Source: Oceaniferula marina
GTDB taxonomy: Bacteria; Verrucomicrobiota; Verrucomicrobiia; Verrucomicrobiales; Akkermansiaceae
Direction of reading: 5' to 3'
Assembly: GCF_013391475.1 (NCBI RefSeq)
Contig: NZ_JACBAZ010000004.1
Coordinates: forward strand, 186,001-250,000
DNA length: 64,000 nt
Shown in pieces: positions 33,671-59,141 of the stretch. Below the pieces are notes generated by a model that was given only the letters and a program-made list of their open reading frames with translations, searched no databases and was not told where the DNA came from. The position numbers and the translations under genes were made by a program. How positions within the stretch are numbered: position 1 is the stretch's first letter; each line of letters begins with the position of its first letter.

Positions 33671-34432
33671 ATGTTGCTAAAAGATCAGGTCATTGTCGTC
33701 ACCGGTGGATCAGAGGGCATTGGCTGGGAGTGCTCCCAGGCTTATGCCAAAGCGGGAGCCAAAGTCGTTATCCTCGCCCGTTCGAATGACAAAATCAAAA
33801 CGGCGGTGGATGCCATAGGACCGGATCACCATGGTATTGCCTGCGACGTATCAAATGAAAATGATGTCTCGGCATCCATGCAGTCGATTATGGCTAAATA
33901 TGGACGAATCAATGCCATCCACAATAACGCAGGGATAGGATCGCCGGCAAAGCCTCTGCACGAAACCTCCCTCGATGAATGGCAGAACCTGATGAACATC
34001 AATCTGAAAAGCATCTACCTAACCACGCGCTATGGTTTTGAATTTCTAAAACAATCCAAAGGCTGCATCCTCAATACCTCATCACTCGTAGGCGTCATGG
34101 GGCAAGCCGATCATGCGGCCTACACTGGCACCAAAGGAGGCGTCAATACCTTGACGAAGTCCATGGCTCTTGACTATGCACCATACGGCATCCGAGTGAA
34201 TGCGGTCTGCCCTGCGGGCACATGGACCCCCATGCTTAGAAAATGGTGCTCGGAACAAGAAAACGCCGCTTCGATTGAACAATACCTGGACGACATCCAC
34301 CCTCTTGGCAATTGCCCAGAAGGTGACGTCATAGCGGACCCTTGCGTATTCCTCCTATCAAAAATGGCCCGCTTCATTACAGGCCACATCCTTCATGTTG
34401 GAGGAGGTGCCGAGATTGGCTATAGAAGGTAA
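33671..34432 (+). CDS. SDR dehydrogenase, possibly L-fucose or KDF dehydrogenase
   Basis: The 253-residue classical short-chain dehydrogenase has cofactor motif TGGSEGIG at residues 12-19, NNAG near 91, catalytic Tyr151 and Lys155 (YTGTK) and ILNTSSLVGVMG before them. Ala/Arg at the end of beta2 (VVILARSND) leaves NAD/NADP choice open. It heads the fucose island and lies two genes before L-fuconate dehydratase. In the non-phosphorylating pathway an SDR could oxidise L-fucose to the lactone or 2-keto-3-deoxy-L-fuconate. Which step cannot be decided from sequence. It is one of the few genes here with a GAGGT-like ribosome-binding site. Confidence 0.82.
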   Translation: MLLKDQVIVVTGGSEGIGWECSQAYAKAGAKVVILARSNDKIKTAVDAIGPDHHGIACDVSNENDVSASMQSIMAKYGRINAIHNNAGIGSPAKPLHETSLDEWQNLMNINLKSIYLTTRYGFEFLKQSKGCILNTSSLVGVMGQADHAAYTGTKGGVNTLTKSMALDYAPYGIRVNAVCPAGTWTPMLRKWCSEQENAASIEQYLDDIHPLGNCPEGDVIADPCVFLLSKMARFITGHILHVGGGAEIGYRR

Positions 34433-34450
34433 TCCTCTTCCCAGTTCCCT

Positions 34451-35569
34451 ATGAAACTGGCACTCGCACTACGCCGCTCCACAGCTCTACGCTTTCCTGT
34501 AGAACTGGGCATTCACGATTATTTAAGGGATCACTCTGAGATCGATGTCGTTAGCGTCAATGGAACCTCCTCCCTATCCTGGAAAGACGCCTTAAGCTGC
34601 GATCCCGATGCCCTGATCGGTTTCTTGCATCAACCGGAGCATGTCCAGCAACTCACAAACATGAATATCCCCTCGGTATGCATCAACAGCATATTCGATC
34701 ATCAACATGTTTCATGCGTCAGATCCGATGCCTATGCAGTGGGAGTGATGGCCGCAAACCATTTTTTAAATCTTCAATGTGAAGATTACACCTTCATCAG
34801 CGACGTCCCTAATCATCACTATTCAGAACGACGTCAGGCAGGCTTTAATGACACCCTCAAAACCCACGGCATTCGAGCGAATTGCATTAGCTCAAATTCG
34901 TTAGACCCTGCCGTATTGTGGCTGAAAAAGAAACTTGCGGACAAAACAAGATCCGCTGTCTTCTGTGTCAATGACCTTACCGCAAGAGCTCTACTCAACC
35001 TCCTGGAACCTCGCCACCCTGATTTGGAAGATCACCTGATCCTCCTTGGTGTCGATAACGATCCTTTCTACTACGACAACGGTGCCGTCATTTTCTCCAG
35101 CATCGATGTAAACCATCGCCAGGTCGGGTATCAAGCCGCCCAACTCGTTCACCAGCAATATCGGGAGAAAACCTCACCACCAAGGTGTATTGAAATTCCG
35201 CCACTCCAATTGGTCAACAGATACCGCCAGGCTCAACGACTTCAGAGTCGCCACCCTGCAGTCTCACAAGCACTGCAAATAATAGCATCAGAGTATGCGT
35301 CCCCTGACCTCACCCCCGAAACACTAGCAGCAAAATGCGCTATCAGCGTCAGATCTCTCAACCGATCTCTAAAAACCCACGATTACCCACCACTCTCCAG
35401 GTGCATTCTAAATGCACGAATGAGAGCCGCAAAAGAACTTATTGAACGATCAAACCTGACACTGGAACAAGTAGCGTTCACCGTAGGTTATAGAGAATAC
35501 ACCACCTTCTTCCGAGCCTTCAAAAAACATGAAGGCCTTGCCCCCTCGAGCTACCATGAGAGCCCTTGA
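34451..35569 (+). CDS. XylR-like AraC-family sugar regulator
   Basis: The 372-residue regulator has an N-terminal LacI/periplasmic-binding-like domain (residues ~1-265, with SDVPNHHYSERRQAGFNDTL and LLGVDNDPFYYDNG). A C-terminal AraC double helix-turn-helix (ETLAAKCAISVRSLNRSLKT ... VGYREYTTFFRAFKKHEG) follows. This is the XylR layout common in Verrucomicrobia. Ligand-free DNA binding plus pentose or deoxysugar sensing is expected. It starts 18 bp after the SDR stop and precedes fuconate dehydratase by 90 bp, so it most likely controls the fucose island. Confidence 0.88.
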   Translation: MKLALALRRSTALRFPVELGIHDYLRDHSEIDVVSVNGTSSLSWKDALSCDPDALIGFLHQPEHVQQLTNMNIPSVCINSIFDHQHVSCVRSDAYAVGVMAANHFLNLQCEDYTFISDVPNHHYSERRQAGFNDTLKTHGIRANCISSNSLDPAVLWLKKKLADKTRSAVFCVNDLTARALLNLLEPRHPDLEDHLILLGVDNDPFYYDNGAVIFSSIDVNHRQVGYQAAQLVHQQYREKTSPPRCIEIPPLQLVNRYRQAQRLQSRHPAVSQALQIIASEYASPDLTPETLAAKCAISVRSLNRSLKTHDYPPLSRCILNARMRAAKELIERSNLTLEQVAFTVGYREYTTFFRAFKKHEGLAPSSYHESP

Positions 35570-35627
35570 AGCTCAAACCACAACCCAAACGTCCCAATTT
35601 GCAATGTTCAGCAGATGACTTCGGTGT

Positions 35628-35642
35628 AATAATAGCATTATT
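35628..35642. promoter_or_regulatory. AT-rich inverted repeat before fuconate dehydratase
   Basis: AATAAT-AGC-ATTATT lies 17 bp upstream of the GTG start at 35660. It could be an operator for the adjacent XylR-like regulator; no -35/-10 pair is clear. Confidence 0.3.
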
Positions 35643-35659
35643 CATTACCCACCGTCCCT

Positions 35660-36883
35660 GTGATTAAGAGCATTCAAACAAACGACACGCGTTTCGACAT
35701 CGGAGATCAAGCGGGATCCGACGCCATCCACAAGAACCCGCAATACTCCTACGCCGTCACCCTGCTCAAGGACAATTCGGGCCACACGGGTTCCGGCTTG
35801 GCCTTCACCTTGGGTGAGGGAAACGACTTGGTCTGCCGCGGTGCTGAATTTTTAGCGAGCTCGCTCCAAGGCCGTGACATCGAAGATTTGATGGCCAACT
35901 TCGGGGAAGTTCAGAGAAAGCTGGCTGACGAACAACAGTTTCGTTGGCTCGGCCCGCATAAAGGAGTGGCCCACCTCGCCCTTTCCTCGGTCACCAACGC
36001 CTGCTGGGATCTCTGGGCAAAAACACGGGGCGTCCCACTTTGGAAACTTCTTCTCGACCTATCCCCCGAAGAACTCGTCAACACCATCGACTTTTCCTAC
36101 CTCGAAGACGAACTCACCAAGGAACAGGCACTCAAGATCATCACAGACCATCAAGCTACCCGCAAACAACGAGAAGGCATCCTGCATCAAGGGTACCCAG
36201 GCTATGACACCTCGATCGGCTGGTTTAATTACAGTGATGAGCAAATCAAAGAAAACGTCAAAAAGTCCGTCGATGCCGGATTCACGGCGATGAAACTTAA
36301 AGTGGGGTCATCAAACATGGATGCCGACCTGAAACGTACGGAAATTGTCCGGTCAGGGGCAGGCCGTCTCGCGACGCTCATGGTCGACGCCAACCAACAA
36401 TGGACCCTATCCCGAGCATTGGAATTTGGTGAACGAGCCAAAGATTATAACTTGTTCTGGATTGAGGAGCCTACCCACCCCGATGACATTCTCGGCCACG
36501 CGACCCTTGCCAAAGCCTACGCACCACACACCAAGGTTGCCGCAGGTGAACACGTCCCGAATCGCATTATTTTCAAAAATTACTTCCAGGCCAAGGCCTT
36601 CGGCTATTGCCAGGCTGATGCTGTCCGGGTCGCCGGAATTAGTGAGTTTTTGGCAATCAGCCTCATGGCACGCCAACGCAATATCCCTGTTGTGCCACAC
36701 GTTGGTGATATGGGGCAAATCCACCAACACCTTGTCCTTTTTAATCATATCGGCTTGGGTCACGAGGCCTTATTACTCGAGCATATCCCTCACCTGAGCG
36801 AACATTTCATTCACCCGTGCCAAGTCTCGGGTGGCGTATATCATACACCTCAAGAACCCGGCATGTCATCCGATTTAAAATAG
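35660..36883 (+). CDS. L-fuconate dehydratase, enolase superfamily
   Basis: The 407-residue enzyme should convert L-fuconate to 2-keto-3-deoxy-L-fuconate. It resembles Xanthomonas FucD along its length: DTRFDIGDQAGSDAIHKNP at the start, FRWLGPHKGVAHLAL, IDFSYLEDELT, and KLKVG with the Lys pair 212/214. VDANQ (Asp243), WIEEPTHPDD and AGEHVPNRIIFK supply the metal ligands. PHVGDMGQIHQHL replaces FucD's PHAGGVGLCE-type loop. It starts with GTG 35660. Being next to an SDR and upstream of a DHDPS-family aldolase, it marks a non-phosphorylating fucose pathway. Confidence 0.93.
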   Translation: MIKSIQTNDTRFDIGDQAGSDAIHKNPQYSYAVTLLKDNSGHTGSGLAFTLGEGNDLVCRGAEFLASSLQGRDIEDLMANFGEVQRKLADEQQFRWLGPHKGVAHLALSSVTNACWDLWAKTRGVPLWKLLLDLSPEELVNTIDFSYLEDELTKEQALKIITDHQATRKQREGILHQGYPGYDTSIGWFNYSDEQIKENVKKSVDAGFTAMKLKVGSSNMDADLKRTEIVRSGAGRLATLMVDANQQWTLSRALEFGERAKDYNLFWIEEPTHPDDILGHATLAKAYAPHTKVAAGEHVPNRIIFKNYFQAKAFGYCQADAVRVAGISEFLAISLMARQRNIPVVPHVGDMGQIHQHLVLFNHIGLGHEALLLEHIPHLSEHFIHPCQVSGGVYHTPQEPGMSSDLK

Positions 36884-36929
36884 CCATAGAACCCATGGCG
36901 AGCTACTAACCATCAAACCACCGATACCG

Positions 36930-39089
36930 ATGCATCGACTAACGAGAATATTTTTCCTCCTCTTTCTCAGCAACCTGACACTCCCAGCCCAAGACAAAAT
37001 CTGGTTCGACAAACCAGCAACGAACTGGGAAACCCACGCCCTACCTATCGGCAATGGATCCCTTGGAGCCATGCTCTACGGTGGGACTCAGGAAATGGTC
37101 ATCCATTTCAACCAAGACTCGCTCTGGGAAGGCAATGCCGACGACACTGGCTGGTATCAATCTTTTGGCCACCTTACATTCAAATTCGACAAGCAAATTC
37201 CCACATACCAGAAATACCAACGAGAGTTGGACATTTCCACCGCCACTCACCACCTCAGCTATACCGCAGGCGGCACGACATACCAGCGCACCGCATTCTC
37301 CTCCACGCCCAAGGGAGCCATCATACTCCAAGCCTCAGCTGACAAGCCTGCTCAATACTCGGGCACCATCTCACTTATTGACGACCACGGGACCCAAGCC
37401 AACGTGATCGGAAACGACACCATCCAATTCCAAGGTTCATTAAAAAACGGCATGCGCTACGCAGCCAAGGTCAAGGTCATCAACCATGGTGGAACTCTTA
37501 CAAACAAAGGAAACCAACTCCACGTCACAAACGCCAACAGCCTGCAATTTATCCTTATTGCAAACACGGACTACATCCCAGATCACACAAAAAAATGGAA
37601 AGGCGAAGATCCGCTCATCAGCATCAATCAGCGAATCAAAACCATAGCCAACGCCGATTTTTTGACCCTTAAAAAACAGCATATCGACGACTACCAACAG
37701 TTTTATAAGCGCGTCGCCATCGATCTCGGAACCAGTGATCAAAGCCTCAATAAACTCAACACCGAAGCCCGTCTGCTTCGTTTCTGGAAAGATCGTAACG
37801 ACCCCGACTTAGAAGAACTCATCTTCAATTACGGCCGCTATCTCCTTATCTCATCCTCGCGCCCGGGCACCCTACCAGCCAACCTACAAGGGATCTGGAA
37901 CCAGTCCAACAAGCCACCATGGAGATGTGACTACCACTCGGACATCAACGTAGATATGAACTACTGGCTGGCTGAGACAACGAACCTCTCCGAGCTTCGT
38001 CAACCGTTCTTCAACTACGTCCTAAGCCAACTCCCGGTCTCCAAGATCAACACCAAAAAGAAATTTGGATTCGACGGCTACGCCATTCAATATGAAAATG
38101 GAATCCATGGTGGAGGATCCTACCGCTGGAATCATTCCGGGGCATCCTGGTTTGCCCAACAATTCTGGGACCACTACAGCTTCACGCTCGATAAAAAATT
38201 CCTCAAAACTCAAGCGCTCCCAGTATTCCGAAGCGTCTGTGAATTCTGGGAACATTGGCTGATTGAAAAAGACGGACAACTCATCGCCCCCAATGGATGG
38301 TCGGCAGAACATGGCCCCACCGAAGATGGGGTGACCTATGATCAACAATTTGCGTGGGACGCCTTCACCAATTACATTGATGCTTGCAAAATCCTCGGCA
38401 ATGAAACGGCACACACACAGAAGATCATTAAGCTCCGGGAAAAACTCATGCCTCTCAAAATTGGCAAATGGGGGCAACTCCAAGAATGGCTATTAGTCGA
38501 CAGGGACAAAAAACAAGAGAAACACCGCCACCTGTCCCACCTCATTGGATTTTACCCGGGAAGACAAATCAACAGCAACACACCTAACCTTCTCGAAGCA
38601 GCCAAGATCTCACTCAATGCCCGTGGTGACAAAGGGGCTGGCTGGGCCCTACCATGGAAAGCTGCGGCGTGGGCACGCTTCGGCGATGGCAACCGTGCAC
38701 ATAAGCTTCTGGTCAATAAACTCAACCCGATCCTCACGACTCCAGGGAGAATCCGTAGTGGCATTGATGGAACATCACCCAATCTGTTTACCATCGTCTG
38801 GGGGGTCATCCAAATTGATGGCTCCCTCGGGTATCCAGCAGCCGTTGCTGAAATGCTTCTTCAGAGCAACGAAGCCGGCAAAGTCCACCTCCTCCCAGCT
38901 CTCCCCGATGCATGGAAAAACGGATCAGTCAAAGGCTTCAAAGCCAGAGGAGGCCACAGCATCGACATCACCTGGAAAGATGGCAAACTGACTCATGCGG
39001 TTATTAAAACAGGCCAGTCCCGCGTTCCCACCGTCCTGGTCCAAGGCAAGCCGATCAAAGCAACAGACCCGCGTATCAACATCCAATAA
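36930..39089 (+). CDS. Secreted GH95 alpha-L-fucosidase
   Basis: The 719-residue protein has a signal peptide (MHRLTRIFFLLFLSNLTLPAQ). It matches the GH95 fold: N-terminal beta-domain (WETHALPIGNGSLGAMLYGG, HFNQDSLWEG) and (alpha/alpha)6 barrel with SSSRPGTLPANLQGIWN, WRCDYHSDINVDMNYWLAE and NGWSAEHGPTEDG. A C-terminal beta-domain (ALPDAWKNGSVKGFKARGG) completes it. GH95 enzymes invert alpha-1,2-linked L-fucose, as on H-type glycans or xyloglucan. It is followed after 31 bp by a sugar symporter, so released fucose is taken up. Confidence 0.94.
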   Translation: MHRLTRIFFLLFLSNLTLPAQDKIWFDKPATNWETHALPIGNGSLGAMLYGGTQEMVIHFNQDSLWEGNADDTGWYQSFGHLTFKFDKQIPTYQKYQRELDISTATHHLSYTAGGTTYQRTAFSSTPKGAIILQASADKPAQYSGTISLIDDHGTQANVIGNDTIQFQGSLKNGMRYAAKVKVINHGGTLTNKGNQLHVTNANSLQFILIANTDYIPDHTKKWKGEDPLISINQRIKTIANADFLTLKKQHIDDYQQFYKRVAIDLGTSDQSLNKLNTEARLLRFWKDRNDPDLEELIFNYGRYLLISSSRPGTLPANLQGIWNQSNKPPWRCDYHSDINVDMNYWLAETTNLSELRQPFFNYVLSQLPVSKINTKKKFGFDGYAIQYENGIHGGGSYRWNHSGASWFAQQFWDHYSFTLDKKFLKTQALPVFRSVCEFWEHWLIEKDGQLIAPNGWSAEHGPTEDGVTYDQQFAWDAFTNYIDACKILGNETAHTQKIIKLREKLMPLKIGKWGQLQEWLLVDRDKKQEKHRHLSHLIGFYPGRQINSNTPNLLEAAKISLNARGDKGAGWALPWKAAAWARFGDGNRAHKLLVNKLNPILTTPGRIRSGIDGTSPNLFTIVWGVIQIDGSLGYPAAVAEMLLQSNEAGKVHLLPALPDAWKNGSVKGFKARGGHSIDITWKDGKLTHAVIKTGQSRVPTVLVQGKPIKATDPRINIQ

Positions 39090-39120
39090 CGCCTCCGGCT
39101 AAACCATACTCGAAGATACC

Positions 39121-41013
39121 GTGACTTCATATCTTTCTCACCTCACTGCAGCAACGTCACCTAGTGGAAGCAAGGTCGCCACTCTGGATGTCGTCATCAT
39201 CATCGTTTACCTCTTAGGAATCGTTGGTATCGGTCTCTATGCAGGCACCGTGATGAAAAAGAAAAAGGCGAAAGCGGGTGCGGGGGAAAGCCGTGACTAC
39301 TTCCTTGCCGGAGGCACTCTGAAGTGGCCCATGATTGGCTTGGCCCTTTTTGCCACCAACATCTCTTGTGTCCATCTCGTATCCCTGGCTCAGTCCGGGT
39401 TCGACACAGGTCTGCTGAATGGCAATTTTGAATGGATGGCAGCCTTTACGCTTATCCTGCTCTCTCTTTTCTTTGCTCCTTTCTATATTAAATCAAAGGT
39501 TGCCACCTTGCCTGACTTTCTTGAAAAGCGATACAACCGATCCTGCCGGGACATGCTCGCCGTTTTTTCGCTGGTTTCTGCCGTCATCGTCCATATTGGC
39601 TTTTCCTTTCTAACGGGAGGCATCGTGCTACACGATATCTTTGGTGTGAATATTTATGTTGCCATCATTGCCATCGCCATCCTCACGGCCATTTATACAA
39701 TCGTCGGTGGGCTGCTCGCCGTCGTTCTCACAGAAACCATCGAAACAATCGTCCTGATTATCGGAGCCACCATCATTTCCTACATCGCCTATCAAAAAAT
39801 GGGAGGATGGAGTGCCATGACGGAAGTATTGAATACACCTAACGCCTTGGGCGAAACTGAAAGCCACCGACTCTCGATGCTGCGCCCTGCTGACGACCCC
39901 GATGGTATGCCGTGGTTTGCCATATTACTCGGCTACCCCGTGCTGGGCATCTGGTATTGGTGTGCGGATCAAACCATCGTCCAGCGTGTTCTCGGGGCCA
40001 AGGATGAAAACCACGCCCGCGTCGGCCCTCTTTTTGCCGGGATTGTGAAGATCATCCCGGTCTTTATCTTTGTGCTTCCCGGACTGCTGGCTTTCACGAT
40101 GTTTAAGACGGGAAAATTGGATATGAGCGATAACATTAAACCTGACGTCGTTGATATCAGGGTCGCCTATGCCAACCAAACATTGACAATAGACGAGGCA
40201 AGCTATGATTCGCTCAAAGCATCCGGCGTGCTCAGTCATGCGCCTCAACGGCACCTCACTATTGATCTCAAAGCGGCAGAAAAACAAAACCTACTCGACC
40301 CTGCAACCATCGCGGCAGCCCGTGAACACGGAGAGCCAGTCTATGAAACCAAAGGCATCTACACCGCGATGATTACCCAGCTTTTACCTGATGGTTTAAA
40401 AGGCGTCATCATTGCCGCGCTGATCGCCGCGCTCATGTCAACCGTATCAGGAGCACTCAACTCGATCTCCACACTCACTGCCTATGATTTGTTTAAACGC
40501 TTCAAACCTGAAACCCCGGATCACCAGCTGGTTACCATTGGGCGGATTGCAGCGGCCGCCGCCCTCGTCATCGCCATCGGGCTTGTTCCATTGTTACTCA
40601 AGGCCCCGAGTATCTTTAATGCCCTCAACTCAATCATTGCTCACATTGCAGCCCCCGTTACCTGTGTCTTCCTTCTGGGTGTTTTTTGGAAAAAAGCCAA
40701 TGCCACTTCAGCCCAATGGACAATGATCATCGGGGCGATTGCAGGCATCACCACCTACTCATGCAATGCGTCATCATACATTACCGGAGGCTTTATGATG
40801 ATGGCATTTTATCTCTTTGTCTTTTGTGTTGTTGTCCAAGTCACCATCACGCTGGTTTCGGGCCAGAGCGTCCCGGAATCGAGTGCCAAACTATGCTGGG
40901 ACTCACCATTTGACCCGGTCCGCCAACCAGGATGGCGTGGCATCGGAAACTATAAGTTTCTCGCGATCCTTCTCCTTGTCATCATGGTCATCCTCTACAT
41001 CGTTTTTCAATAA
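39121..41013 (+). CDS. SSS-family sodium/sugar symporter, probable L-fucose importer
   Basis: The 630-residue SGLT-type permease has GTG start at 39121. Typical segments are SRDYFLAGGTLKWPMIGLAL, FATNISCVHLVSLAQSGF, PVLGIWYWCADQTIVQRVLGA and the late LMSTVSGALNSISTLT. A hydrophilic loop of ~90 residues around 340-425 (KPDVVDIRVAYANQTLTIDE...) is inserted before the helix containing MITQLLPDGLKGVIIAALIA. The loop is typical of some Planctomycetes/Verrucomicrobia symporters. It lies between two fucosidase genes, so L-fucose is the likely cargo. Confidence 0.88.
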   Translation: MTSYLSHLTAATSPSGSKVATLDVVIIIVYLLGIVGIGLYAGTVMKKKKAKAGAGESRDYFLAGGTLKWPMIGLALFATNISCVHLVSLAQSGFDTGLLNGNFEWMAAFTLILLSLFFAPFYIKSKVATLPDFLEKRYNRSCRDMLAVFSLVSAVIVHIGFSFLTGGIVLHDIFGVNIYVAIIAIAILTAIYTIVGGLLAVVLTETIETIVLIIGATIISYIAYQKMGGWSAMTEVLNTPNALGETESHRLSMLRPADDPDGMPWFAILLGYPVLGIWYWCADQTIVQRVLGAKDENHARVGPLFAGIVKIIPVFIFVLPGLLAFTMFKTGKLDMSDNIKPDVVDIRVAYANQTLTIDEASYDSLKASGVLSHAPQRHLTIDLKAAEKQNLLDPATIAAAREHGEPVYETKGIYTAMITQLLPDGLKGVIIAALIAALMSTVSGALNSISTLTAYDLFKRFKPETPDHQLVTIGRIAAAAALVIAIGLVPLLLKAPSIFNALNSIIAHIAAPVTCVFLLGVFWKKANATSAQWTMIIGAIAGITTYSCNASSYITGGFMMMAFYLFVFCVVVQVTITLVSGQSVPESSAKLCWDSPFDPVRQPGWRGIGNYKFLAILLLVIMVILYIVFQ

Positions 41014-41047
41014 ACCTAGCCGATTGCTTTCATTACCAACCGCACTT

Positions 41048-42499
41048 ATGAAGAAGAAACTCCACATCCCCGCGCTTGTTCTATTGTTACCACTTCTCGC
41101 CCATGCTCAGACAGGGCATCTGAAGCCGTCGTCACAACCGAATGCATACCAAAAACAAATGATCAACCGGTCCTATGGTATGTTCATTCACTTTGGTATC
41201 AATACCTACTCAGGCAAAGAGTGGACCGATGGCACGCTGAGCCCGGACATCTATCAACCTGAGAAACTCGACACCGACCAATGGGCAAAAACAGCCAAAG
41301 ATGCCGGCATGACCTACGTCATCCTCGTCACTAAACACCATGAAGGGTTTTGCCTCTGGGATTCGAAACACACGACCTATGATGTGGCTTCAAGCTCGGT
41401 CAAAACGGATGTCGTCAAGTCCATGGCCGCATCCTGTAAGAAATATGGGCTCAACCTTGGACTCTACTACTCCCTGTGGGACAGAAACTGGGGCAATGGC
41501 GTCATGCGAAGTAATAGAGCCACACTAACACCCCAACAAAGTGACGACTACGTTACCTACATGAATAGCCAACTCACGGAACTCCTCACCCGATACGGTG
41601 AAGTCTGCGAACTTTGGTTCGATGGCGGATGGGTGCTACCAAGAGAGCAGTGGCAAACAGACCGTATCTATAAGCATGTCAAAAAACTACAACCTAACTG
41701 CCTTGTTGGAGTAAACTGGAGCATTGGTAAACATTCGAACCCTGACCACCACGCCGTCAGGCCACCGGCTTACCGCTTAGGCCAACCTCAACGCTACGCT
41801 GGCGACTTCCGCTTGGGCGACCCCATGCTTCCTGTGTTTCCGGACCCAAAACTCTATTCCAACGCCAAGGGACAACTTGTTTACATGCCTTTTGAAGCCA
41901 CCATCACCATCAACAAACACTGGTTTTGGCACCCATACGACAAAGGTCTACTCAGTGTGGAAAAGCTCATCCCTCTCTACGAACGCTGCACGGCTCAAGA
42001 CAATGTACTCACCCTCAACTCTCCACCGAATAGAGACGGACTCATGGAGCAACGGAATATTGACCGACTTAAAGAACTTGCCTCAGCACTTGGAGCCAAA
42101 TCAAGCCAAAGAATCCCGCACAACCTAGCAGAAGGCGCACAGGTCTATGCCACCTCTACCTGGACGAAAGATCCTACCGACCATTCAGCCATATGTGCCA
42201 CGGATGGAAACCCCTCAACCCGCTGGGCAGCAGCAGACTCACCATGTAAGTTCTTTCTCCAATGGGGGAATGCCCAGACGATCAACTTCCTGCGCATTCG
42301 TGAATATACAAACCGTGTGGAAAAATTTACGGTCTCCGCCATGATGAACGGTAATTGGAAAACCATCGTAACGGGAACAGAGATCGGCCCGAATAAACTT
42401 ATCCCGTTCCCCGAAACCACGACGACCAACCTCAAAATTTCATTTGACCAATGCAAGGATGCTCCCAGCTTCTACTTTATTGGCGCAGGAAAAAACTAA
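41048..42499 (+). CDS. Secreted GH29 alpha-L-fucosidase, with F5/8-type domain
   Basis: The 483-residue protein starts at ATG 41048 (the open frame runs on upstream into the symporter). A signal peptide (KLHIPALVLLLPLLAHAQ) precedes the GH29 barrel: YGMFIHFGINTYSGKEW, VTKHHEGFCLWDSK, GLYYSLWDRNW and the nucleophile Asp in CELWFDGGW. The C-terminal ~120 residues form a discoidin/F5-8-like carbohydrate-binding domain (ICATDGNPSTRWAAADSP). It is a retaining enzyme cleaving alpha-1,3/1,4- or other L-fucosides. It is 34 bp downstream of the symporter, in the same apparent operon. Confidence 0.93.
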   Translation: MKKKLHIPALVLLLPLLAHAQTGHLKPSSQPNAYQKQMINRSYGMFIHFGINTYSGKEWTDGTLSPDIYQPEKLDTDQWAKTAKDAGMTYVILVTKHHEGFCLWDSKHTTYDVASSSVKTDVVKSMAASCKKYGLNLGLYYSLWDRNWGNGVMRSNRATLTPQQSDDYVTYMNSQLTELLTRYGEVCELWFDGGWVLPREQWQTDRIYKHVKKLQPNCLVGVNWSIGKHSNPDHHAVRPPAYRLGQPQRYAGDFRLGDPMLPVFPDPKLYSNAKGQLVYMPFEATITINKHWFWHPYDKGLLSVEKLIPLYERCTAQDNVLTLNSPPNRDGLMEQRNIDRLKELASALGAKSSQRIPHNLAEGAQVYATSTWTKDPTDHSAICATDGNPSTRWAAADSPCKFFLQWGNAQTINFLRIREYTNRVEKFTVSAMMNGNWKTIVTGTEIGPNKLIPFPETTTTNLKISFDQCKDAPSFYFIGAGKN

Positions 42500-42519
42500 C
42501 TCTTCATCTCACCAGCTTA

Positions 42520-43305
42520 ATGATGCGAACGCTCTTTATCATCGTCTCCCTTCTCACCTCGTTCAAAATTACGGCGAATCCCGGGCAATTTGATATGCCC
42601 ACCCGGCAGGGAGAGTGCTCACGCACTGCTTACTTTGCCTACATCAAAGCCGGTTCTGTTGACGCCCTCAAAAAACACATCACCCCAAAAGCTGACCATA
42701 TCAAGGCACTGGAAAAACACGGCATAAGCAACGTTTCATTTTGGCTCGATCAGATCGGCGAGAAAACCATTGTAATTTGTTATCACCGTATTGCCAATCA
42801 GCACCCGGACAAGGCATGGACCGCTGCCATGGCCGACCCAGATTTACATCCATGGATGAAAGCCTGTAACTCCTATCTGGTAAAGAAAGATGAGCAACCC
42901 GCATGGGAGCGCATGGAAACGCTTTGCCTCATTACCCGCAAAGAGGCGATGCATGATAAGGAAGGAAATCCTCTCCCTCTCGTTTCTCGCCATATGGCGG
43001 CCACCATTTTGAAACCAGAAAAGGAAATGGATTACCGCCTTCTTCACCAGAATATGTGGCAGGGGGTTTCAGAGACCATAGGAGCTTGTAAAATTCCGGT
43101 CTTTGATCTTTTTCTCACAGAAATTGATGGTCAGCTCATCGAGATCTATTATTTTGACTACGTAGGCAGTGATCTCGATGCTTCATTCAAAAAGATGGCG
43201 GCCGACCCGATCACCCGCCGATGGTGGAAGCTGACTGATCCATGTCAATCACCACTGCCGGGAGCACCTGAGGGAAATAACTGGCGCGATTGCAATCCCA
43301 TGTAA
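42520..43305 (+). CDS. Secreted tandem RhaM-like sugar mutarotase
   Basis: The 261-residue protein has a signal peptide (MRTLFIIVSLLTSFKITA). Two L-rhamnose-mutarotase-type (DUF718) domains follow in tandem. Domain 1 (~residues 25-120) has YFAYIKAGSVDALKKH, HGISNVSFWLD and DPDLHPWMKA. Domain 2 (~165-250) has YRLLHQNMW, CKIPVFDLFLTEIDG and DPITRRWWKLTDPCQ. Each keeps the His that aligns with RhaM's catalytic His22. RhaM-type enzymes exchange alpha and beta anomers of L-rhamnose or L-fucose. Export and tandem duplication are unusual. It sits after GH29 and may feed the correct anomer to the symporter; this is inference. Confidence 0.75.
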   Translation: MMRTLFIIVSLLTSFKITANPGQFDMPTRQGECSRTAYFAYIKAGSVDALKKHITPKADHIKALEKHGISNVSFWLDQIGEKTIVICYHRIANQHPDKAWTAAMADPDLHPWMKACNSYLVKKDEQPAWERMETLCLITRKEAMHDKEGNPLPLVSRHMAATILKPEKEMDYRLLHQNMWQGVSETIGACKIPVFDLFLTEIDGQLIEIYYFDYVGSDLDASFKKMAADPITRRWWKLTDPCQSPLPGAPEGNNWRDCNPM

Positions 43306-43337
43306 GTCACGTTTTTTACATACCGAACCTTATCACC

Positions 43338-44396
43338 ATGTCAAACACACCGATCAAAGGAATCTACGTTCCCAACATCACCCCTTACCACCCCGATGGC
43401 ACACTCAACGAGGGAGAGCTTCGGAACATTGTCTCCTGGCTCATTGACAAGGGAGTATCCGGCATTTTCCCGAATGGAAGTCTCGGCGAGTTCATCCGCC
43501 TTAGCTTTGAGGAGCGGAAAAAGGTCATCAGCATTATTGCGGATGAAGTGGATGGCCGCGTTCCGATTCTTGCCGGAGCCGCCGAGCCCAACACTGACTT
43601 AGTCCTGGAGATGTGCCACCACTGTGCCGACCTCGGCTGCCGCGCCGTCTCGATCACGGGCCCTTATTATTTCAAACCCAGTCAGGAAAGTATCGAAGCC
43701 TATTTTCAAGATCTCGCCGAACGCTCCCCCATCGATATCGTCGTTTACAACATCCCCACACTGGCATCTGAGATCAGTGTCCCAGTGCTCACCCGCCTGG
43801 CCCTCAATTACCCACGCATTGTCGGCACCAAAGACAGCAGTGCTGACATGTGCCGCTTCCTCCATGTCATGAACGCCATCAAACCGACACGCCCCGATTT
43901 CAGCGTCATGGTTGGCTGGGAAGAACTGCTTGTTCCCACCATGATGATGGGAGGCGACGGAGGCACGGTCTCCACCGCAGGTGTAGCTCCTGAGGTGATG
44001 ATGAAGATCTACCATGACTGTGTTGCTGGTAACTGGGAACAAGCCAAAGACTACCAATACAAACTTCTGGAACTTTTCCAGACGATGTTAACTGCCAAAA
44101 ACTTCCCCACGGGGTTCCGGCTTGGATACGAAGCCCGCGGGTTTACTCCGGGCGGCGTAAGATTTCCAAACGCCCCCAGTGAGGTCAATGATCTCACGGC
44201 CATCAAAGATAAGATCTCCTGTTTACTTGGGGACTGTGGACTCGGCGATTTACCTCATTCCTGTAGTATCCCCAACTTCGAAGCCCAGGCTACGTACAAC
44301 CCGGTCTCTATGGCCCAATCGACGCAAACCAGTGGAGTGAGCAGAAATGACGTGGAAGACATCGTTCGCAAAGTGATGAGGAACCTCAACATTTAA
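43338..44396 (+). CDS. DHDPS/NAL-family aldolase with C-terminal encapsulation-peptide-like tail
   Basis: The 352-residue class I aldolase contains GSLGEF (GxxGE site), Tyr137 in IVVYNIP and Schiff-base Lys165 in IVGTKDSS. Its core ends near residue 300. A ~30-residue Ser/Thr/Gln-rich linker then leads to residues 335-352, SRNDVEDIVRKVMRNLNI, an amphipathic helix of the type that targets enzymes into BMCs. Family members split 2-keto-3-deoxy acids, so cleavage of 2-keto-3-deoxy-L-fuconate to pyruvate and L-lactaldehyde is the natural guess. The BMC-T gene begins 12 bp later. Start ATG 43338 is chosen by homology to MSNTPIKGIYVPN. Function and targeting are inferred. Confidence 0.85.
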   Translation: MSNTPIKGIYVPNITPYHPDGTLNEGELRNIVSWLIDKGVSGIFPNGSLGEFIRLSFEERKKVISIIADEVDGRVPILAGAAEPNTDLVLEMCHHCADLGCRAVSITGPYYFKPSQESIEAYFQDLAERSPIDIVVYNIPTLASEISVPVLTRLALNYPRIVGTKDSSADMCRFLHVMNAIKPTRPDFSVMVGWEELLVPTMMMGGDGGTVSTAGVAPEVMMKIYHDCVAGNWEQAKDYQYKLLELFQTMLTAKNFPTGFRLGYEARGFTPGGVRFPNAPSEVNDLTAIKDKISCLLGDCGLGDLPHSCSIPNFEAQATYNPVSMAQSTQTSGVSRNDVEDIVRKVMRNLNI

Positions 44397-44408
44397 GATT
44401 TTACGTTC

Positions 44409-45056
44409 ATGCCCACCAAATCTAACCCGTCTCTAGGCTTCATCGAGGTCAGGCACCTGTCGATCGCCGCCATCGTTGCCGACACCGTCACCAAGTCCGC
44501 CAGCGTCAACCTGTTAGGGCTCGAGCCTGCAGGCACAGAACTCACACTGATCCGCATTAGCGCGAAAAGCCCGGCGGAAATCAAAGCCGCGCTTGAGGCC
44601 GCAGAAAACGAAGCGGCCCGACTTGGCAGTGAAGCCACCACCACCATGCTGCCCAAACCCGACAGCAATATCCCCAAACTCAACGAAGGAAAAATGATCA
44701 TCAACGGCCTCTATGGAGGTCGTGAAGAACTTAAACCCAACGACTACCAACCGAATAAATTCGAATCCAACACCACCATGTCAAAAAAACAAAAAGCCAT
44801 AGGCATCCTTGAAACCCAGGGGCTTACCGCCAGCCTCGCAGCCAGTGACGCAATGTTCAAAGCGGCTGATGTCAGCCTTGTCGGCAAAGAAAAAATCGGA
44901 GCCGCTTACGTCACGATTGTGATCGAAGGTGACGTCGCCGCGGTCAATGCAGCAATAGAGACGGGAGCTGAAGCTATCGGGCAACTGGGCACTCTGATCG
45001 CCGCCCACGTCATTGCAAGGCCACACGATGACCTCATTGCCCTACTACCAGGCTAA
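44409..45056 (+). CDS. Tandem-BMC-domain shell protein (BMC-T)
   Basis: The 215-residue product has two BMC domains. Domain 1 (residues ~8-90) is divergent (SLGFIEVRHLSIAAIVADTV, ELTLIRISAKSPAEIKAALE). Domain 2 (~127-215) is canonical: KAIGILETQGLTASLAASDA, KIGAAYVTIVIEGDVAAVNA, AHVIARPHDDL. A ~40-residue polar linker joins them. BMC-T trimers form pseudo-hexagonal shell tiles, some with gated pores. In-frame ATG 44778-44780 (MSKKQKAIGILE) looks like a BMC-H start and could give a 92-residue separate protein. It pairs with the targeted aldolase, 12.8 kb away from the main shell locus. Confidence 0.9.
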   Translation: MPTKSNPSLGFIEVRHLSIAAIVADTVTKSASVNLLGLEPAGTELTLIRISAKSPAEIKAALEAAENEAARLGSEATTTMLPKPDSNIPKLNEGKMIINGLYGGREELKPNDYQPNKFESNTTMSKKQKAIGILETQGLTASLAASDAMFKAADVSLVGKEKIGAAYVTIVIEGDVAAVNAAIETGAEAIGQLGTLIAAHVIARPHDDLIALLPG

Positions 45057-53596: not shown

Positions 53597-55381
53597 TTAA
53601 TCATAGAGCGGCCCGTAATTCGAGCAGGCACGGAAATCCGAGCTCTCCAAATCATCGGTGCCGTGGGCAGCCCACGATGAGGGTCGGAAGACACGATCTT
53701 CGCTGACGTTGTGCATATAAACCGGAATACGGAGCATCGATGCCATGGTAATGAGATCGGCGCCAATCAGGCCGTAACTCATCACACAGTGGTTCGCGCC
53801 CCAATTGTTCATCACCGAATAGGTGTCACGGAATGCGCCCTTACCAGTCAGATTTGGGCAGAACCATGTGGTTGGCCAGGTCGGATTTGTACGTTCATCC
53901 AAGGTATCGTGAACTTCCTCGGGAAGTTCAACGGTGACGCCCTCGGCAATTTGAAGCGCTGGGCCGAGTCCCTTGACCAGGTTCAAGCGAGCGATCGTCG
54001 CCGGCATGCCGCCCTTTGTGGCATAACGGGTGCTCCAACCACCGCCGGGGAAGTATTCGGTCACTGACGGGTGCCAGGTCGTTGCATCCAAACAGGCCTG
54101 CACTTCGTCATCTGTGATTTCCCAGAATGGCTTCATCGCAGGTTTTCCGTCCTTACTCATCTGGCCAGTCCCATCCAGAGCGGCCGGGCCGGAGTTGATC
54201 AAGTGAAGCAAGCCGTTGGCTGCCGCACCGGAAAGATCGTAACCGGAGACGCGCTTTACCGCATCAGGAGACCAGTAAGTGCGCAAGTCGGCAAAGATCT
54301 GCGCTGTATTGGTCAGCAAATGACCAAACAACATGGTCACGGCATTCAGGGCATCATTCTCTGTAGCAAACTGATAAGGAGGACGTTTACCGTTCCAATC
54401 GAAGGAGGTCGTAAGAATGGCTTCCATAAAATCACCATTCGGGTAGTGGTCGGTCCACTGCCGCTGTCCTTGGAATCCTCCGCAAATAGCATTGCGGCCC
54501 ATAGCCTCCTCGCCGTAGCCCAACTCAGCAAGCTTTTCATTACCCACCATCATATCGCGGGCAATGATGGCCATCTTGATCGAGGTTTCCCACTCGGAAT
54601 CAAGCTGCTCACGGGAACGGGTGGTTTCGGGAGTATTGTAATCCTTGCCTTCAGGGCAGTTTTCCTTCACCCAGGCAAAGGCCTTGTCATATTCCTCCTG
54701 ATCATAAATCCCCCGCTCAAAACGCCGGGCCAACTCAGTCATATCGACAGCTTCAACACGGATACCCAGGTAATCTTGGAAGAACTCGGGATCGACAACC
54801 GATCCGGCAATCCCCATGGAAGTTCCACCAAGGGAAAGATAGGATTTGCCGCGCATCAAAGCCACGGAGATACCAGCACGGCAAAACGACAGAATCTTGT
54901 GAGCCACATCGTCGGGAATACTGGTATCGCCGGCATCTTGAACATCACGTCCATAGATACCGAAGGCCGGCAAGCCTTTCTGAGTGTGTCCTGCAAGCAC
55001 GGCAGCGAGATAAACGGCCCCCGGGCGCTCGGTCCCATTAAATCCCCACACGGCCTTCGGCGTGTGCGGGTCCATATCCATGGTTTCGGATCCATAACAC
55101 CAGCAAGGTGTCACCGTCAGGGAAACCCCAACATTTTCACGCTTAAATTTATCCGCACAGGCTGAGGCTTCAGCCACTCCCCCGATGCAGGTATCGGCAA
55201 TCACACACTCAACCGGTGAACCGTCCGGGTAGCACAGGTTTGCCGAAATAAAAGCGGCAGCTGCTTTGGCCTGGTTCATCGTTTGATCTTCCAGGGACTC
55301 ACGCACACCACGGCGGCGACCATCGATGGTTGGGCGAATGCCAATCTTTGGCATGTTCTCTTTATTGAATACAGTTTTCAT
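53597..55381 (-). CDS. fucI: L-fucose isomerase
   Basis: The 594-residue enzyme interconverts L-fucose and L-fuculose and needs Mn2+. It is the same size as E. coli FucI (591). Recognisable segments are [20 protein letters not shown] at the start, [29 protein letters not shown] and [20 protein letters not shown]. The metal-binding region [18 protein letters not shown] and a late [20 protein letters not shown] also fit. Close relatives act on D-arabinose too. It is third in the DeoR-kinase-isomerase operon. Confidence 0.95.
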
Positions 55382-55437
55382 AGGTTGATAGTTTATTGGT
55401 TAGATTGAAAACGACTTTTTCATGCCGTTGAGATTGT

Positions 55438-56913
55438 TTAGGTTTTTGATGTTAGTTGGCAAAACCGCAGATAAGCATGCGCCCACTCATCTGATGGTTG
55501 CGGGGTGAAGGTTTTTGTGTCCATGGAATCGGCGACCAACTGACGCCCAGCCGCCACATTGGGCAAGGCACCGGTGGCCACCATCTGCATCATAATATTC
55601 CCGCAGGATGTCGCTTCCACAGGTCCGGCAACCACGGGAACCCCCAAGGCATCCGCGGCGGACTGCATCAACATGAGGTTCTTCGTTCCTCCCCCACCGG
55701 CGTTCAGACAGTCAAATTGCTTGCCTGTCACTTGTTGCAAGGACTCCGCAACCTGACGGTATTTCAACGCCAGACTTTCATTGATCACGCGTAAAATGGT
55801 TCCCTTGTCCTCTGGCACCTCTTGACCGGTCTTCCGGCAATACTCACGGATTCTCTCAGGCATATCCCCGGGAGAAGCAAATTCAGGGGCATTCGGATCA
55901 ATAAATGCCGAAAAGGCCTCGGCTTCATCAGCCAAACGATCCAATACCTCGAAGCGTGTATCCTCACCCTGTTCCTTCCAGTGACGGATACTCTCCTGAG
56001 CCATCCACATCCCAGCGACGTTGTGCAGCAAACGCGTTGTCCCCTCAACACCTCCCTCATTGGACAAGCCAGCTTCGAAGGCCTCGGCGCTCGTCACCGG
56101 ACACTCTGACTCCACCCCGATAATCGACCACGTTCCAGAAGAAAGCCACAAGCCACTTTGCGTCATCGGTAATCCGGCAACAGCACAGGCCGTATCGTGC
56201 CCGGCCGAAGCGACCACCTGCATGCCGGAGTGAACCCCGGTCCGTTCAACCACACTCGGATGAACCGGCCCCAGCACCGTCCCCGAAGGAACAATCCTAC
56301 CAAACATCTGGCGAGGCAATTCCAAAGCATCAATCACATCCCAGGCCCAATCCTCCTCACTAGGGTTATACAACTGGCTCGTGCTGGTGATTGTACGCTC
56401 ATTCGCTTGCTCACCACTGAGCCAGTAGGCCAATAAATCCGGAGTAAACAAAAGGCGATCCGCAATATCCAGCCCCGGATTGCCTCGCATCCGCTCCGCC
56501 AATAAATGTAAACTGGAATTGTAAAAGGCAGCTTGCACCCCGGTCTTGGCATACACCTCCCGCAGCGGCATCCGCTTCTCCAATTCTGCCTGCATCCCCT
56601 CAGTTCGAGGGTCCCGGTACTGTCGATGCCCACCCAGCATGTTGCCATTTCGATCGAGCATCGCATGATCGCAGCCCCAGCTGTCCGCAGCGATGGAAAC
56701 GATCGCATCACCAAACAGATCCACAGCTTTTCGTATCCCCTCCTGAATCGAGCTAAAAAGCTGCAAGGTATTCCAATGACAGGCGCCATTCAACTCCACA
56801 CCATCGTTGGAAAAACGATGCACTTCTTCCAGCTCCAGCTTGGAGCCATCATACTTTCCAGCCACCAGCCGACCAGAACCAGCTCCCAGATCTATTGCGA
56901 GATACACTTGCAT
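55438..56913 (-). CDS. FGGY kinase, RhaB-like; probable L-fuculokinase
   Basis: The 491-residue FGGY-family kinase has nucleotide/sugar motifs LAIDLGAGSGRLVAG (residues 5-19), SIAADSWGCDHAML, SAGHDTACAVAG (catalytic Asp region), LSSGTWSIIGVE and CLNAGGGGTKNLMLMQSAAD. The DLGAGSGR form is that of rhamnulokinases rather than E. coli FucK. Located between DeoR and L-fucose isomerase genes, it most likely phosphorylates L-fuculose, and perhaps L-rhamnulose, at C1, supplying the class II aldolase at the end of the window. Confidence 0.9.
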   Translation of the reverse strand: MQVYLAIDLGAGSGRLVAGKYDGSKLELEEVHRFSNDGVELNGACHWNTLQLFSSIQEGIRKAVDLFGDAIVSIAADSWGCDHAMLDRNGNMLGGHRQYRDPRTEGMQAELEKRMPLREVYAKTGVQAAFYNSSLHLLAERMRGNPGLDIADRLLFTPDLLAYWLSGEQANERTITSTSQLYNPSEEDWAWDVIDALELPRQMFGRIVPSGTVLGPVHPSVVERTGVHSGMQVVASAGHDTACAVAGLPMTQSGLWLSSGTWSIIGVESECPVTSAEAFEAGLSNEGGVEGTTRLLHNVAGMWMAQESIRHWKEQGEDTRFEVLDRLADEAEAFSAFIDPNAPEFASPGDMPERIREYCRKTGQEVPEDKGTILRVINESLALKYRQVAESLQQVTGKQFDCLNAGGGGTKNLMLMQSAADALGVPVVAGPVEATSCGNIMMQMVATGALPNVAAGRQLVADSMDTKTFTPQPSDEWAHAYLRFCQLTSKT

Positions 56914-56930
56914 ACCTTTACTATGTTGGA

Positions 56931-56949
56931 TTTATTTGGGTTTATTTGG
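56931..56949. promoter_or_regulatory. Direct repeat between deoR and kinase
   Basis: Two copies of TTTATTTGG (56931-56939 and 56941-56949) are spaced 10 bp apart. A related GTTTATTGG is at 55391-55399, just before fucI. They may be regulator sites or simply A/C-rich leaders as seen from the minus strand. Confidence 0.3.
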
Positions 56950-56958
56950 TTTTCCAAG

Positions 56959-57717
56959 TCAAGCAGAGATCACATCGACTCCCACATTTTTTACAGCCTC
57001 CAACACAAGCGGGTCAGCGCCCTTGCTCGTGATCAGAGTGGAAAGCTGGGAACAATCGGCGAAAAAGAAAGCTGAACACTGTCCAATTTTTGTTGCATCT
57101 GCGAGAAAACAAACATCTTCCGCACATTCGATGACATGCTCTTTAAATGCAGCCTGCCGCGAATTCCCCTCACTGACACCGCGCTGTAAGTCCAGACCGT
57201 TTCCAGAAAAAAACATCCGGTGAATATTGTACCGGAGTAGCGTTTTTTCTGCAGCAGCCCCGATAAACGAACGCGACCGTGCCTCATACAGCCCGCCGGT
57301 GCTCACCAGATCCACCTGCTCCATCCCCCCGACAGCAGACACCACATCATGGGCATTGGTCACCACCGTGATCGGAAAATCCGGCAGATACTGCGTGATC
57401 GACAACGCGGTGGAACTGGCATCGATAAAAATCGTCTCCTTCGGCTGAATCCTCTGGGCTGCCGCCTTGGCAATCTCGTTTTTCGCCTCCCGGTTCATCA
57501 GTTGGCGCTCAGTCAGCGACAACTCGCGAAGCGCCCGCTTCGGCGGAATCGCGCCACCATGAGTCCGCACTAAAAACCCCTGATTCTCCAAGACTTCAAA
57601 ATCCTTCCGAATGGTCTCGTCCGTCACGCTGAGCAACGAAGCAATCTCTTTGGTTCGAACTGAACCTTGTTCAGACAAGGTTTTCAGTATTTGATGGTGA
57701 CGTTCTGCAGCTAGCAT
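56959..57717 (-). CDS. DeoR-family repressor of the BMC locus
   Basis: The 252-residue regulator starts MLAAERHHQILKTLSEQGSV and has the DeoR helix-turn-helix TKEIASLLSVTDETIRKDFE (residues 22-41). LVRTHGGAIPP follows. A sugar-phosphate-sensing DeoRC domain (IFIDASSTALSITQYLPD, NAHDVVSAVGG, VSTGGLYEARSRSFIGAAAE) completes it. It is encoded divergently from pduL and leads the kinase-isomerase operon. It should respond to a phosphorylated intermediate such as L-fuculose-1-phosphate and control both sides. DeoR regulators are usual in PVM-type BMC loci. Confidence 0.92.
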   Translation of the reverse strand: MLAAERHHQILKTLSEQGSVRTKEIASLLSVTDETIRKDFEVLENQGFLVRTHGGAIPPKRALRELSLTERQLMNREAKNEIAKAAAQRIQPKETIFIDASSTALSITQYLPDFPITVVTNAHDVVSAVGGMEQVDLVSTGGLYEARSRSFIGAAAEKTLLRYNIHRMFFSGNGLDLQRGVSEGNSRQAAFKEHVIECAEDVCFLADATKIGQCSAFFFADCSQLSTLITSKGADPLVLEAVKNVGVDVISA

Positions 57718-57815
57718 AATTCTTTGAATAGTTGGACTTTTTAGGGAAATTCTTTGTTTTTCGTTGACTTGTCAATAAAAAGCTGGGAAATGTGCGTTGT
57801 CAGCCAACAATTTTC
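57718..57815. promoter_or_regulatory. Divergent control region between deoR and pduL
   Basis: The 98-bp gap has a 9-bp direct repeat AATTCTTTG at 57718-57726 and 57748-57756, start to start exactly 30 bp (about three helical turns). It also has a palindrome TTGACTTGTCAA at 57764-57775, whose left half could serve as a -35 box for pduL; a matching -10 is poor. These are good candidates for DeoR operators. Confidence 0.5.
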
Positions 57816-58496: not shown

Positions 58497-58551
58497 GTCC
58501 GCAAACACGCATCAACAAACAAACAATCAACTACAAACCAACTAACATACC

Positions 58552-58821
58552 ATGAACAAAGCCCTAGGAATGATCGAAACAAAAGGCTACGTCGGCAGCG
58601 TCGAAGCAGCTGACGCCATGTCCAAAGCCGCTGATGTCGACATCGTCAAGCAAGTCCAAATCGGTGCAGGATACCTCACCATTCTCATCCAAGGAGACGT
58701 CGGCAGCGTGAAAGCAGCCGTCGATTCCGGAGCAGAAGCCGCCGGACGCGTCGGCGAACTCGTCAGCGCCCACGTCATCGCTCGCCCAGCACCCGAACTC
58801 CTCAAACAGTTCGATATCTAA
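58552..58821 (+). CDS. BMC-H shell protein 1
   Basis: The 89-residue single-domain shell protein forms hexameric facet tiles. It shows ALGMIETKGYVGSVEAADAM, pore-loop region VQIGAGYL, ILIQGDVGSVKAAVDSGAE and SAHVIARPAPELL. The pore loop is QIGAG rather than the usual KIGSG. It is 55 bp after pduL and 36 bp before the next BMC-H, with A/C-rich leaders (CAACTAACATACC) and no Shine-Dalgarno sequence. Confidence 0.96.
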   Translation: MNKALGMIETKGYVGSVEAADAMSKAADVDIVKQVQIGAGYLTILIQGDVGSVKAAVDSGAEAAGRVGELVSAHVIARPAPELLKQFDI

Positions 58822-59136: not shown

Positions 59137-59141
59137 GGTAG

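Follow-up and report, generated by a model that had tools for sequence, protein, structure and literature searches.

A DHDPS-family aldolase with a putative encapsulation tail and an adjoining BMC-T gene near a PVM microcompartment locus of Oceaniferula marina

PVM microcompartments are described, in the accessible portions of the relevant studies, with class II or AraD-like aldolases, and a cargo enzyme of the DHDPS type goes unmentioned in those portions (Axen et al. 2014; Sutter 2021; Orellana 2021). A FucA/RhaD-type aldolase within a BMC locus is reported in the excerpted text of a 2026 Verrucomicrobiota paper (PMC13274419). The excerpts of Sutter 2021 also contain satellite 'EUT modules', each composed of an enzyme and a BMC-T, which are presented as possible functional extensions. 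Encapsulation peptides are defined, in the portion of the literature covered here, as terminal amphipathic helices of 15-20 residues attached through a flexible linker. Such helices have been proposed to bind the groove between tessellated tiles, which is lined by small residues (PMC11157265, in part). As to fucose itself, route 1 of its degradation leads through a mutarotase, a dehydrogenase, a lactonase and a fuconate dehydratase to L-2-keto-3-deoxyfuconate (KDF), which an aldolase splits into pyruvate and L-lactaldehyde (PMC11199699, in part), and the fucose-induced genes of C. jejuni include a 'dapA', a UxaA-type dehydratase and an amidohydrolase (PMC12566272, in part).

The window analysed here, a stretch of 64,000 nucleotides, comes from a genome of 5.07 Mb (97% complete) and contains nine closely spaced genes on the plus strand (33671-45056), the spacing of which suggests a single operon. 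Together with the main PVM locus, these are as follows:

33671-34432, plus strand: SDR dehydrogenase, candidate L-fucose dehydrogenase (adh_short families; 165 bits to the NCBIfam L-fucose dehydrogenase, below its cut-off of 300)
34451-35569, plus strand: AraC-type regulator with a periplasmic-binding-protein-like sensor domain (domain matches)
35660-36883, plus strand: enolase-superfamily L-fuconate dehydratase (phmmer to solved structures)
36930-39089, plus strand: GH95 family glycoside hydrolase (domain match)
39121-41013, plus strand: sodium:solute symporter, SSF (domain match)
41048-42499, plus strand: alpha-L-fucosidase (PF01120)
42451-43305, plus strand: RhaM-type mutarotase-like protein (PF05336, 73.8 bits; the ATG at 42520 is an alternative start)
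43338-44396, plus strand: DHDPS-family class I (Schiff-base) pyruvate aldolase of 352 aa, putative FucH-like L-2-keto-3-deoxyfuconate aldolase (PF00701)
44409-45056, plus strand: BMC-T, a standard non-permuted tandem BMC-domain shell protein of 215 aa (PF00936 twice)
53597-64000: main PVM locus within the window (domain and family matches)

The aldolase and BMC-T genes, 12 bp apart, thus lie where a preliminary description of this DNA had placed them. Among the preceding genes, the dehydratase gives the strong matches, being similar over nearly its full length to the L-fuconate dehydratase 2hne (phmmer, 343 bits) and to the mitochondrial enolase superfamily member 1, 4a35 (357 bits); GH95 is a family that we take to be one of alpha-L-fucosidases. 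A lactonase gene was not found within the nine-gene run of the window. Two distant Amidohydro_2 lactonase candidates are encoded elsewhere in the genome, 25-31% identical to those located beside the aldolases of relatives. One Amidohydro_2 gene of lactonase type (L133, contig C5 near 80 kb) is flanked by LutB-type and LutA-like genes of L-lactate oxidation, and is a candidate both for the missing fuconolactonase and for a function in lactate use. Elsewhere in the window we observed a glycyl-radical trans-4-hydroxy-L-proline dehydratase (12076-14439; 1206 bits, cut-off 1100) with, by eye, an activase-like gene beside it (14472-15299).

The main PVM locus begins on the minus strand with FucI (L-fucose isomerase), an FGGY kinase and DeoR. 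These are followed by PduL, two BMC-H (domain at 58561 and gene at 58858) and acetate kinase, then by another BMC-H, a BMC-P, an acylating AldDH, two more BMC-P domains and the start of a class II aldolase, the rest of which lies beyond the window together with an LDH/MDH-family gene (L011). The components by which PVM loci are recognised, namely class II aldolase, BMC-H, BMC-P, AldDH, acetate kinase and DeoR, are therefore all present in one locus, with three BMC-H and three BMC-P domains in total. The end of the BMC-T gene (45056) and PduL (57792), with which the main shell operon begins, are separated by 12.7 kb, rather than the 12.8 kb given previously, and by about ten genes according to our own count. 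In the accessible text of Axen et al. (2014), shell genes within 20 kb of each other form one prospective locus, and in Sutter 2021 (also seen as an excerpt) satellite loci are distal to the main one, genes being gathered over 12 ORFs. Since 12.7 kb falls within the former limit and about ten genes within the latter, the earlier designation of the pair as a 'satellite' is debatable and cannot be retained on these rules.

Several further features of the PVM region deserve mention. The kinase beside L-fucose isomerase (55438-56913) is more similar to rhamnulokinase (401 bits) than to L-fuculokinase (137 bits), both scores being under the respective cut-offs. The LDH/MDH-family gene (L011, 1660-2583) encodes an Arg aligned with a Gln of Bacillus stearothermophilus LDH (1ldn), presumably the specificity position Gln102 of the LDH specificity loop, which suggests a malate-type substrate. 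Because of this residue we dropped the proposal that lumenal redox balance is maintained by reduction of aldolase-derived pyruvate. After the PVM locus, among transporter genes of the fucose cluster, there is a divergent glycyl-radical enzyme of 776 aa with its activase (L011, 4997-8310); it scores about 202 bits to B12-independent glycerol dehydratase and stays under all NCBIfam cut-offs shown.

Residues 7-293 of the run's aldolase match the DHDPS family (192 bits). The nearest solved structure by sequence is E. coli YagE, named as a probable 2-keto-3-deoxy-galactonate aldolase, and the fold of the predicted model is likewise found among DHDPS and related enzymes. Y137 and K165, which we take to be the catalytic Schiff-base positions of this family, are invariant in all 12 aligned sequences; sequence and model together assign the protein to the class I DHDPS-type fold, with Lys and Tyr at the expected positions. 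The view that this is an enzyme of pyruvate-aldolase type, encoded in a fucose gene run beside the PVM locus, is upheld. An identity as DapA was rejected, as the score of 161 bits is below the dapA cut-off of 206 and a separate DHDPS gene in the genome reaches 300 bits. An L-KDF aldolase, FucH, reportedly described by Watanabe in 2020, acts in the non-phosphorylating fucose pathway (route 1) and is presumably a DHDPS-family member. Given that an L-fuconate dehydratase match, fucosidase-family genes, a mutarotase-like gene and a transporter share the run, we infer that L-KDF is the substrate of the aldolase encoded here.

Downstream of its catalytic domain the aldolase possesses a tail made of two parts:

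44256-44345, plus strand: Ser/Thr/Gln-rich linker, about residues 307-336, of low confidence (pLDDT) and probably disordered
44346-44390, plus strand: C-terminal amphipathic helix, residues 337-351, a putative encapsulation peptide (AlphaFold2 helix, moment, motif)

In the AlphaFold2 model, which was based on a 12-sequence alignment, residues 310-334 have pLDDT values below 50 and are followed by an isolated helix at residues 337-351 (mean pLDDT 69 over 341-350), close to the residues 335-352 at which a linker-borne amphipathic helix had been anticipated. By prediction, then, the tail fits the definition of an encapsulation peptide. Among 69 termini (both ends of 34 chosen window genes and the C-end of the main-locus aldolase), the helical hydrophobic moment is greatest for the C-terminal 15-mer of this protein, and the spacing pattern of the helix is common to this tail and the N-terminus of the main-locus AldDH. 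A motif defined post hoc, from tails already viewed, occurs at 10 of 301 ORF C-termini sampled from the same genome, the aldolase included, and at 8 of the 301 N-termini, the main-locus AldDH included; by eye, most of the other termini that bear it look like membrane segments. Considering the linker and helix, and the motif on the AldDH N-terminus, we infer that the tail localises the aldolase in the shell. The possibility that tails are general in this family was rejected, for of the genome's four paralogues, three (open frames of 308, 312 and 324 aa) lack a linker and helix by eye, one of these three ending in a charged helix-like stretch.

A class-wide sample of 384 genomes yielded aldolase matches (E<=1e-50) in 23. 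BMC-domain matches are present in 22 of these, compared with 132 of the 384 overall (Fisher 3e-10, a value that ignores relatedness). The latter count refers to genomes matched by the BMC-T query at E<=1e-15, and since most of the matches listed cover domain 2 only, they are probably largely BMC-H. The tail motif is found at the C-end in 22 of 28 rows in its relaxed form and in 21 in its strict form, the window included, the rows being 27 class-sample matches (E<=1e-50) and the locus L024, and this despite linkers that differ in length and sequence. The motif is missing from two pieces of G262 (the gene on contig C63 ends at the contig edge ahead of the tail), from G211 (an in-frame stop precedes the tail), and from G138, G169 and G127. 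The last of these, G127, is the sole aldolase genome devoid of BMC matches, and its tail is absent; G169, G138 and G211 do have BMC matches and no canonical tail. The near-constant presence of BMC matches in aldolase genomes and the absence of the tail in the BMC-less one argue that the enzyme is a cargo of the PVM compartment. A phylum-wide search found the aldolase in 12 of 387 genomes, nine within the class and three outside, the latter with open frames of 284-306 aa, two of which contain an in-frame stop. A separate search of genome contigs for the aldolase returned 2 relatives only, and a plasmid collection gave 4 records at 33-35% identity.

One could also suppose that the aldolase is cytosolic, that its helix serves oligomerisation or solubility, and that the BMC-T is nearby through operon hitch-hiking. 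Five of the 13 genomes with this BMC-T do not have the two genes on one contig, and the canonical tail is missing from some relatives in BMC genomes, as would then be expected. We consider a cytosolic enzyme improbable, however, as the motif persists in 22 of 28 rows regardless of the linker, is absent from G127 and recurs on the main-locus AldDH.

The BMC-T contains two non-permuted PF00936 domains on a single chain (122.6 bits), the standard BMC-T arrangement. Its model aligns with 6ner, a tandem fusion of BMC-H, over 179 residues (Z 21.8, rmsd 2.1), and its scores against the CcmO and PduT models are 109.9 bits (cut-off 270) and 48 bits, respectively. The two halves are not equivalent: the KAAD and ARPH motifs, which are BMC-H-like, are kept in the sequence of domain 2 and not in that of domain 1, and mean identity within the family amounts to 23% in the junction linker, 41% in domain 1 and 74% in domain 2. 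The family was found in 13 genomes, all of which carry the aldolase, and in no other genome among the matches listed; three of them (G025, G052, G045) gave domain-2-only matches and were counted after full-length alignment in stretches of aldolase genomes. This count leaves out G320, G024, G290 and G236, which have a second BMC-T type (34-38% identity) and of which only G236 carries the aldolase; with these included, the figure becomes 14 of 17. Phylum-wide, a BMC-T search at E<=1e-30 retrieved 4 of 387 genomes, the one under study included, all within the class. Members of the second type (L065, L067, L070, L072) are located behind an SDR-like gene and a conserved gene of ~280 aa, with BMC-H genes following, by eye, in L065, L067 and L070 and none visible in L072.

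A survey for the same gene pair, proposed in the preliminary description, bore out its recurrence in relatives: the two genes adjoin in 8 of the 13 genomes and occupy different contigs of draft assemblies in the other five, the gap sizes in L107 and L108 being start-choice artefacts. All eight adjacent pairs include the tail motif, and a search among them for a tail-less homologue beside BMC-T, the proposed counter-example, found none. The BMC-T is nevertheless no obligatory partner. Two loci, L023 and L024, encode tailed aldolases at 78-79% identity, and the stretches available for them (17.0 and 10.3 kb) contain no BMC-T, so that the tail, not the BMC-T, is the more constant feature; in G344, taken as the genome of L023, the best of 3 BMC matches spans residues 110-214 only. 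Among the matches listed, 10 of the 23 aldolase genomes are without this BMC-T family (G236, included here, carries the second type), and we therefore regard its likely role as accessory at most and not essential. DeoR and PduL are neighbours of the tailed aldolase in two genomes, G018 and G045; in the former the shell genes come next, placing it within the main shell cluster, and in the latter the contig stops after PduL. The aldolase is for this reason better called an extra PVM cargo than part of a free module.

On contig C4, near 537-539 kb (L012, 11097-13098), the genome also encodes a PduT-like BMC-T of 184 aa beside a PduS/RnfC-like flavin/Fe-S protein, at a distance of some 290 kb from the PVM locus. 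This couple is possibly an electron-transfer satellite for the PVM shell. The existence of such a gene, and the position of the run's BMC-T apart from the main cluster, might indicate that the latter is part of a second compartment, distinct from the PVM shell. This is very improbable: the only other shell-domain matches are those of the PVM cluster and the PduT-like gene, and the genome has 7 BMC and 3 BMC-P domain matches in total, which leaves no second set of pentamers.

The junction between the two BMC domains has a peculiarity of its own:

44778-45056, plus strand: candidate internal start, an in-frame ATG that would give a free 92-aa BMC-H consisting of domain 2 (conserved ATG, start context)

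An ATG just ahead of domain 2 is found in 17 of 17 genes of both BMC-T types, 4-7 codons before the domain in 13 of 13 members of the family and 9 codons before it in all 4 genes of the second type. When columns are aligned, the Met falls into one column for 9 of the 13, the others being displaced by short gaps, and a junction Met is absent from the sequence of the genome's PduT-like BMC-T. Shine-Dalgarno-like motifs precede only 4% of 77 starts of the genome. In a start-context model (AUC 0.88), derived from these 77 starts of one genome, cross-validated for starts only and favouring G-poor sequence, the internal ATG of the window ranks at the 98th percentile among 765 internal ATGs and at the 51st among true starts. 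When the model is applied to other genomes, the mean percentile over the 17 genes peaks at the Met (0.88) above a plateau of 0.64-0.84 extending from 4 codons before to 10 after it, and values for single genes among the 13 lie between 0.61 and 1.00. An internal start is known from PduB, where it yields PduB'; our literature search on internal starts in microcompartment genes returned nothing clearly relevant by title. We tentatively raise the possibility, on balance a doubtful one, that the internal ATG yields a free BMC-H beside the BMC-T, one gene thereby specifying two tile types. The Met is also compatible with a structurally kept relic of a gene fusion. In the former case the cell, while producing the KDF aldolase as cargo, could tune the shell's ratio of trimers to hexamers, and the aldolase/BMC-T cassette would resemble a plug-in by which a phosphorylating fucose compartment is converted to the acceptance of non-phosphorylated sugar acids. 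The junction Met offers a directly testable instance of a shell gene that may specify two tile types.

The gene neighbourhoods of relatives bear on the substrate. In the window, in L023 and in G323 (L091) the aldolase shares its stretch with the same SDR and L-fuconate dehydratase (67-82% identity), and the tailed aldolase of L023 is accompanied by the same fucose genes as that of the window. The run of G145 comprises a UxaA-type dehydratase, an amidohydrolase, the aldolase and BMC-T. Of ten chosen neighbours typed in five loci, four are Amidohydro_2 of lactonase type, the others being, one each, a UxaA-type dehydratase, an SMP-30 lactonase-type protein, a RhaT transporter, a Gfo/Idh-type oxidoreductase, a solute-binding protein and a CoA-transferase. 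The aldolase may thus be encapsulated and have as its natural substrate another 2-keto-3-deoxy acid, either derived from L-rhamnonate or one of a broad range, with fucose being incidental. The variation among these runs (RhaT-type transporter, UxaA-type dehydratase, SMP-30 lactonase, distant enolase-superfamily relatives) is in keeping with this, as is the failure of the aldolase to reach any NCBIfam equivalog cut-off. Nonetheless, the shared SDR and L-fuconate dehydratase of the three loci make such a substrate unlikely.

We therefore favour, as the probable explanation, that through this pair the fucose PVM compartment gains a non-phosphorylating entry, with a FucH-like L-KDF aldolase inside the shell and BMC-T as an accessory. 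In the cytosol, the SDR, a lactonase encoded elsewhere and L-fuconate dehydratase would oxidise and dehydrate L-fucose to KDF. The C-terminal helix would dock the DHDPS-type aldolase in the lumen, where its Schiff-base chemistry would convert KDF to pyruvate and L-lactaldehyde. Lactaldehyde would then pass to AldDH and PduL (with acetate kinase), the enzymes that also serve the main-locus class II aldolase, so that the toxic aldehyde would be made inside the shell by two routes, one phosphorylating (class II aldolase) and one non-phosphorylating. The adjacent BMC-T may be an accessory tile fitting the shell to the KDF branch, for example by passage of anionic KDF or pyruvate; that it provides a pore for either compound is a guess. 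Against this mechanism we count the SDR's score below the L-fucose dehydrogenase cut-off, which leaves room for another step, as well as the run's missing lactonase, the BMC-T family's absence from those 10 aldolase genomes among the matches listed, the lack of a canonical tail in G169, G138 and G211 and the five genomes with genes on separate contigs.

If the SDR were instead a KDF 4-dehydrogenase, KDF would be oxidised, hydrolysis would then give pyruvate and lactate (route 3), and the aldolase would do something else. L-KDF 4-dehydrogenase is likewise an SDR according to the available part of PMC11199699, and the genome does have one FAA-hydrolase gene. That gene, though, is on another contig, where the genes around it, over the 3.6 kb covered, gave no match to any reference fucose or BMC protein, and the SDR heads the very run that encodes the aldolase and a shell protein. 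Route 3 consequently seems improbable.

The earlier interpretation of this locus was right in outline and too strong with respect to the 'module' and the BMC-T. Its claim of novelty also has to be divided: the L-KDF aldolase reaction (FucH, route 1) is already published (PMC11199699, in part), and what appears new is encapsulation and the paired BMC-T. In the microcompartment literature covered, much of it in excerpt, we found no encapsulated DHDPS-type aldolase; one may be in print, and priority is unproven. Should the proposed mechanism hold, a catabolic organelle may recruit a chemically unrelated aldolase with the same aldehyde product by means of a short tail and a new tile. This bears on why fucose breakdown is enclosed at all, as lactaldehyde, not a sugar phosphate, would be the common denominator, and on how metabolosomes are rewired by polysaccharide degraders and which tiles serve which metabolites.

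Compared with known systems, the main locus is PVM-like in its BMC-H, BMC-P, AldDH, PduL, acetate kinase, class II aldolase, DeoR and LDH/MDH-family genes and in its fucose substrate, and differs from PVM as described in the excerpts through a further aldolase, of the Schiff-base pyruvate type and bearing a tail of its own, and through a BMC-T. The enzyme resembles FucH of route 1 in the proposed reaction and in a run with mutarotase-like, dehydrogenase-like and dehydratase genes, and differs in its C-terminal encapsulation-type helix, the adjoining shell gene and a run devoid of a lactonase. The fucose genes of C. jejuni are similar to the run of G145, to which a BMC-T has been added. The BMC-T shares two non-permuted BMC domains with 6ner (a synthetic-shell BMC-H fusion), PduT and CcmO, from which it is distinguished by a diverged domain 1, a BMC-H-like domain 2 and a Met conserved at the junction. 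The closest conceptual precedent, as far as the excerpted description goes, is the EUT module, which also unites a signature enzyme with a trimeric tile and may extend a resident compartment to another substrate; here, in contrast, the enzyme and its chemistry are different, the BMC-T is standard rather than permuted, and the main locus is only 12.7 kb away.
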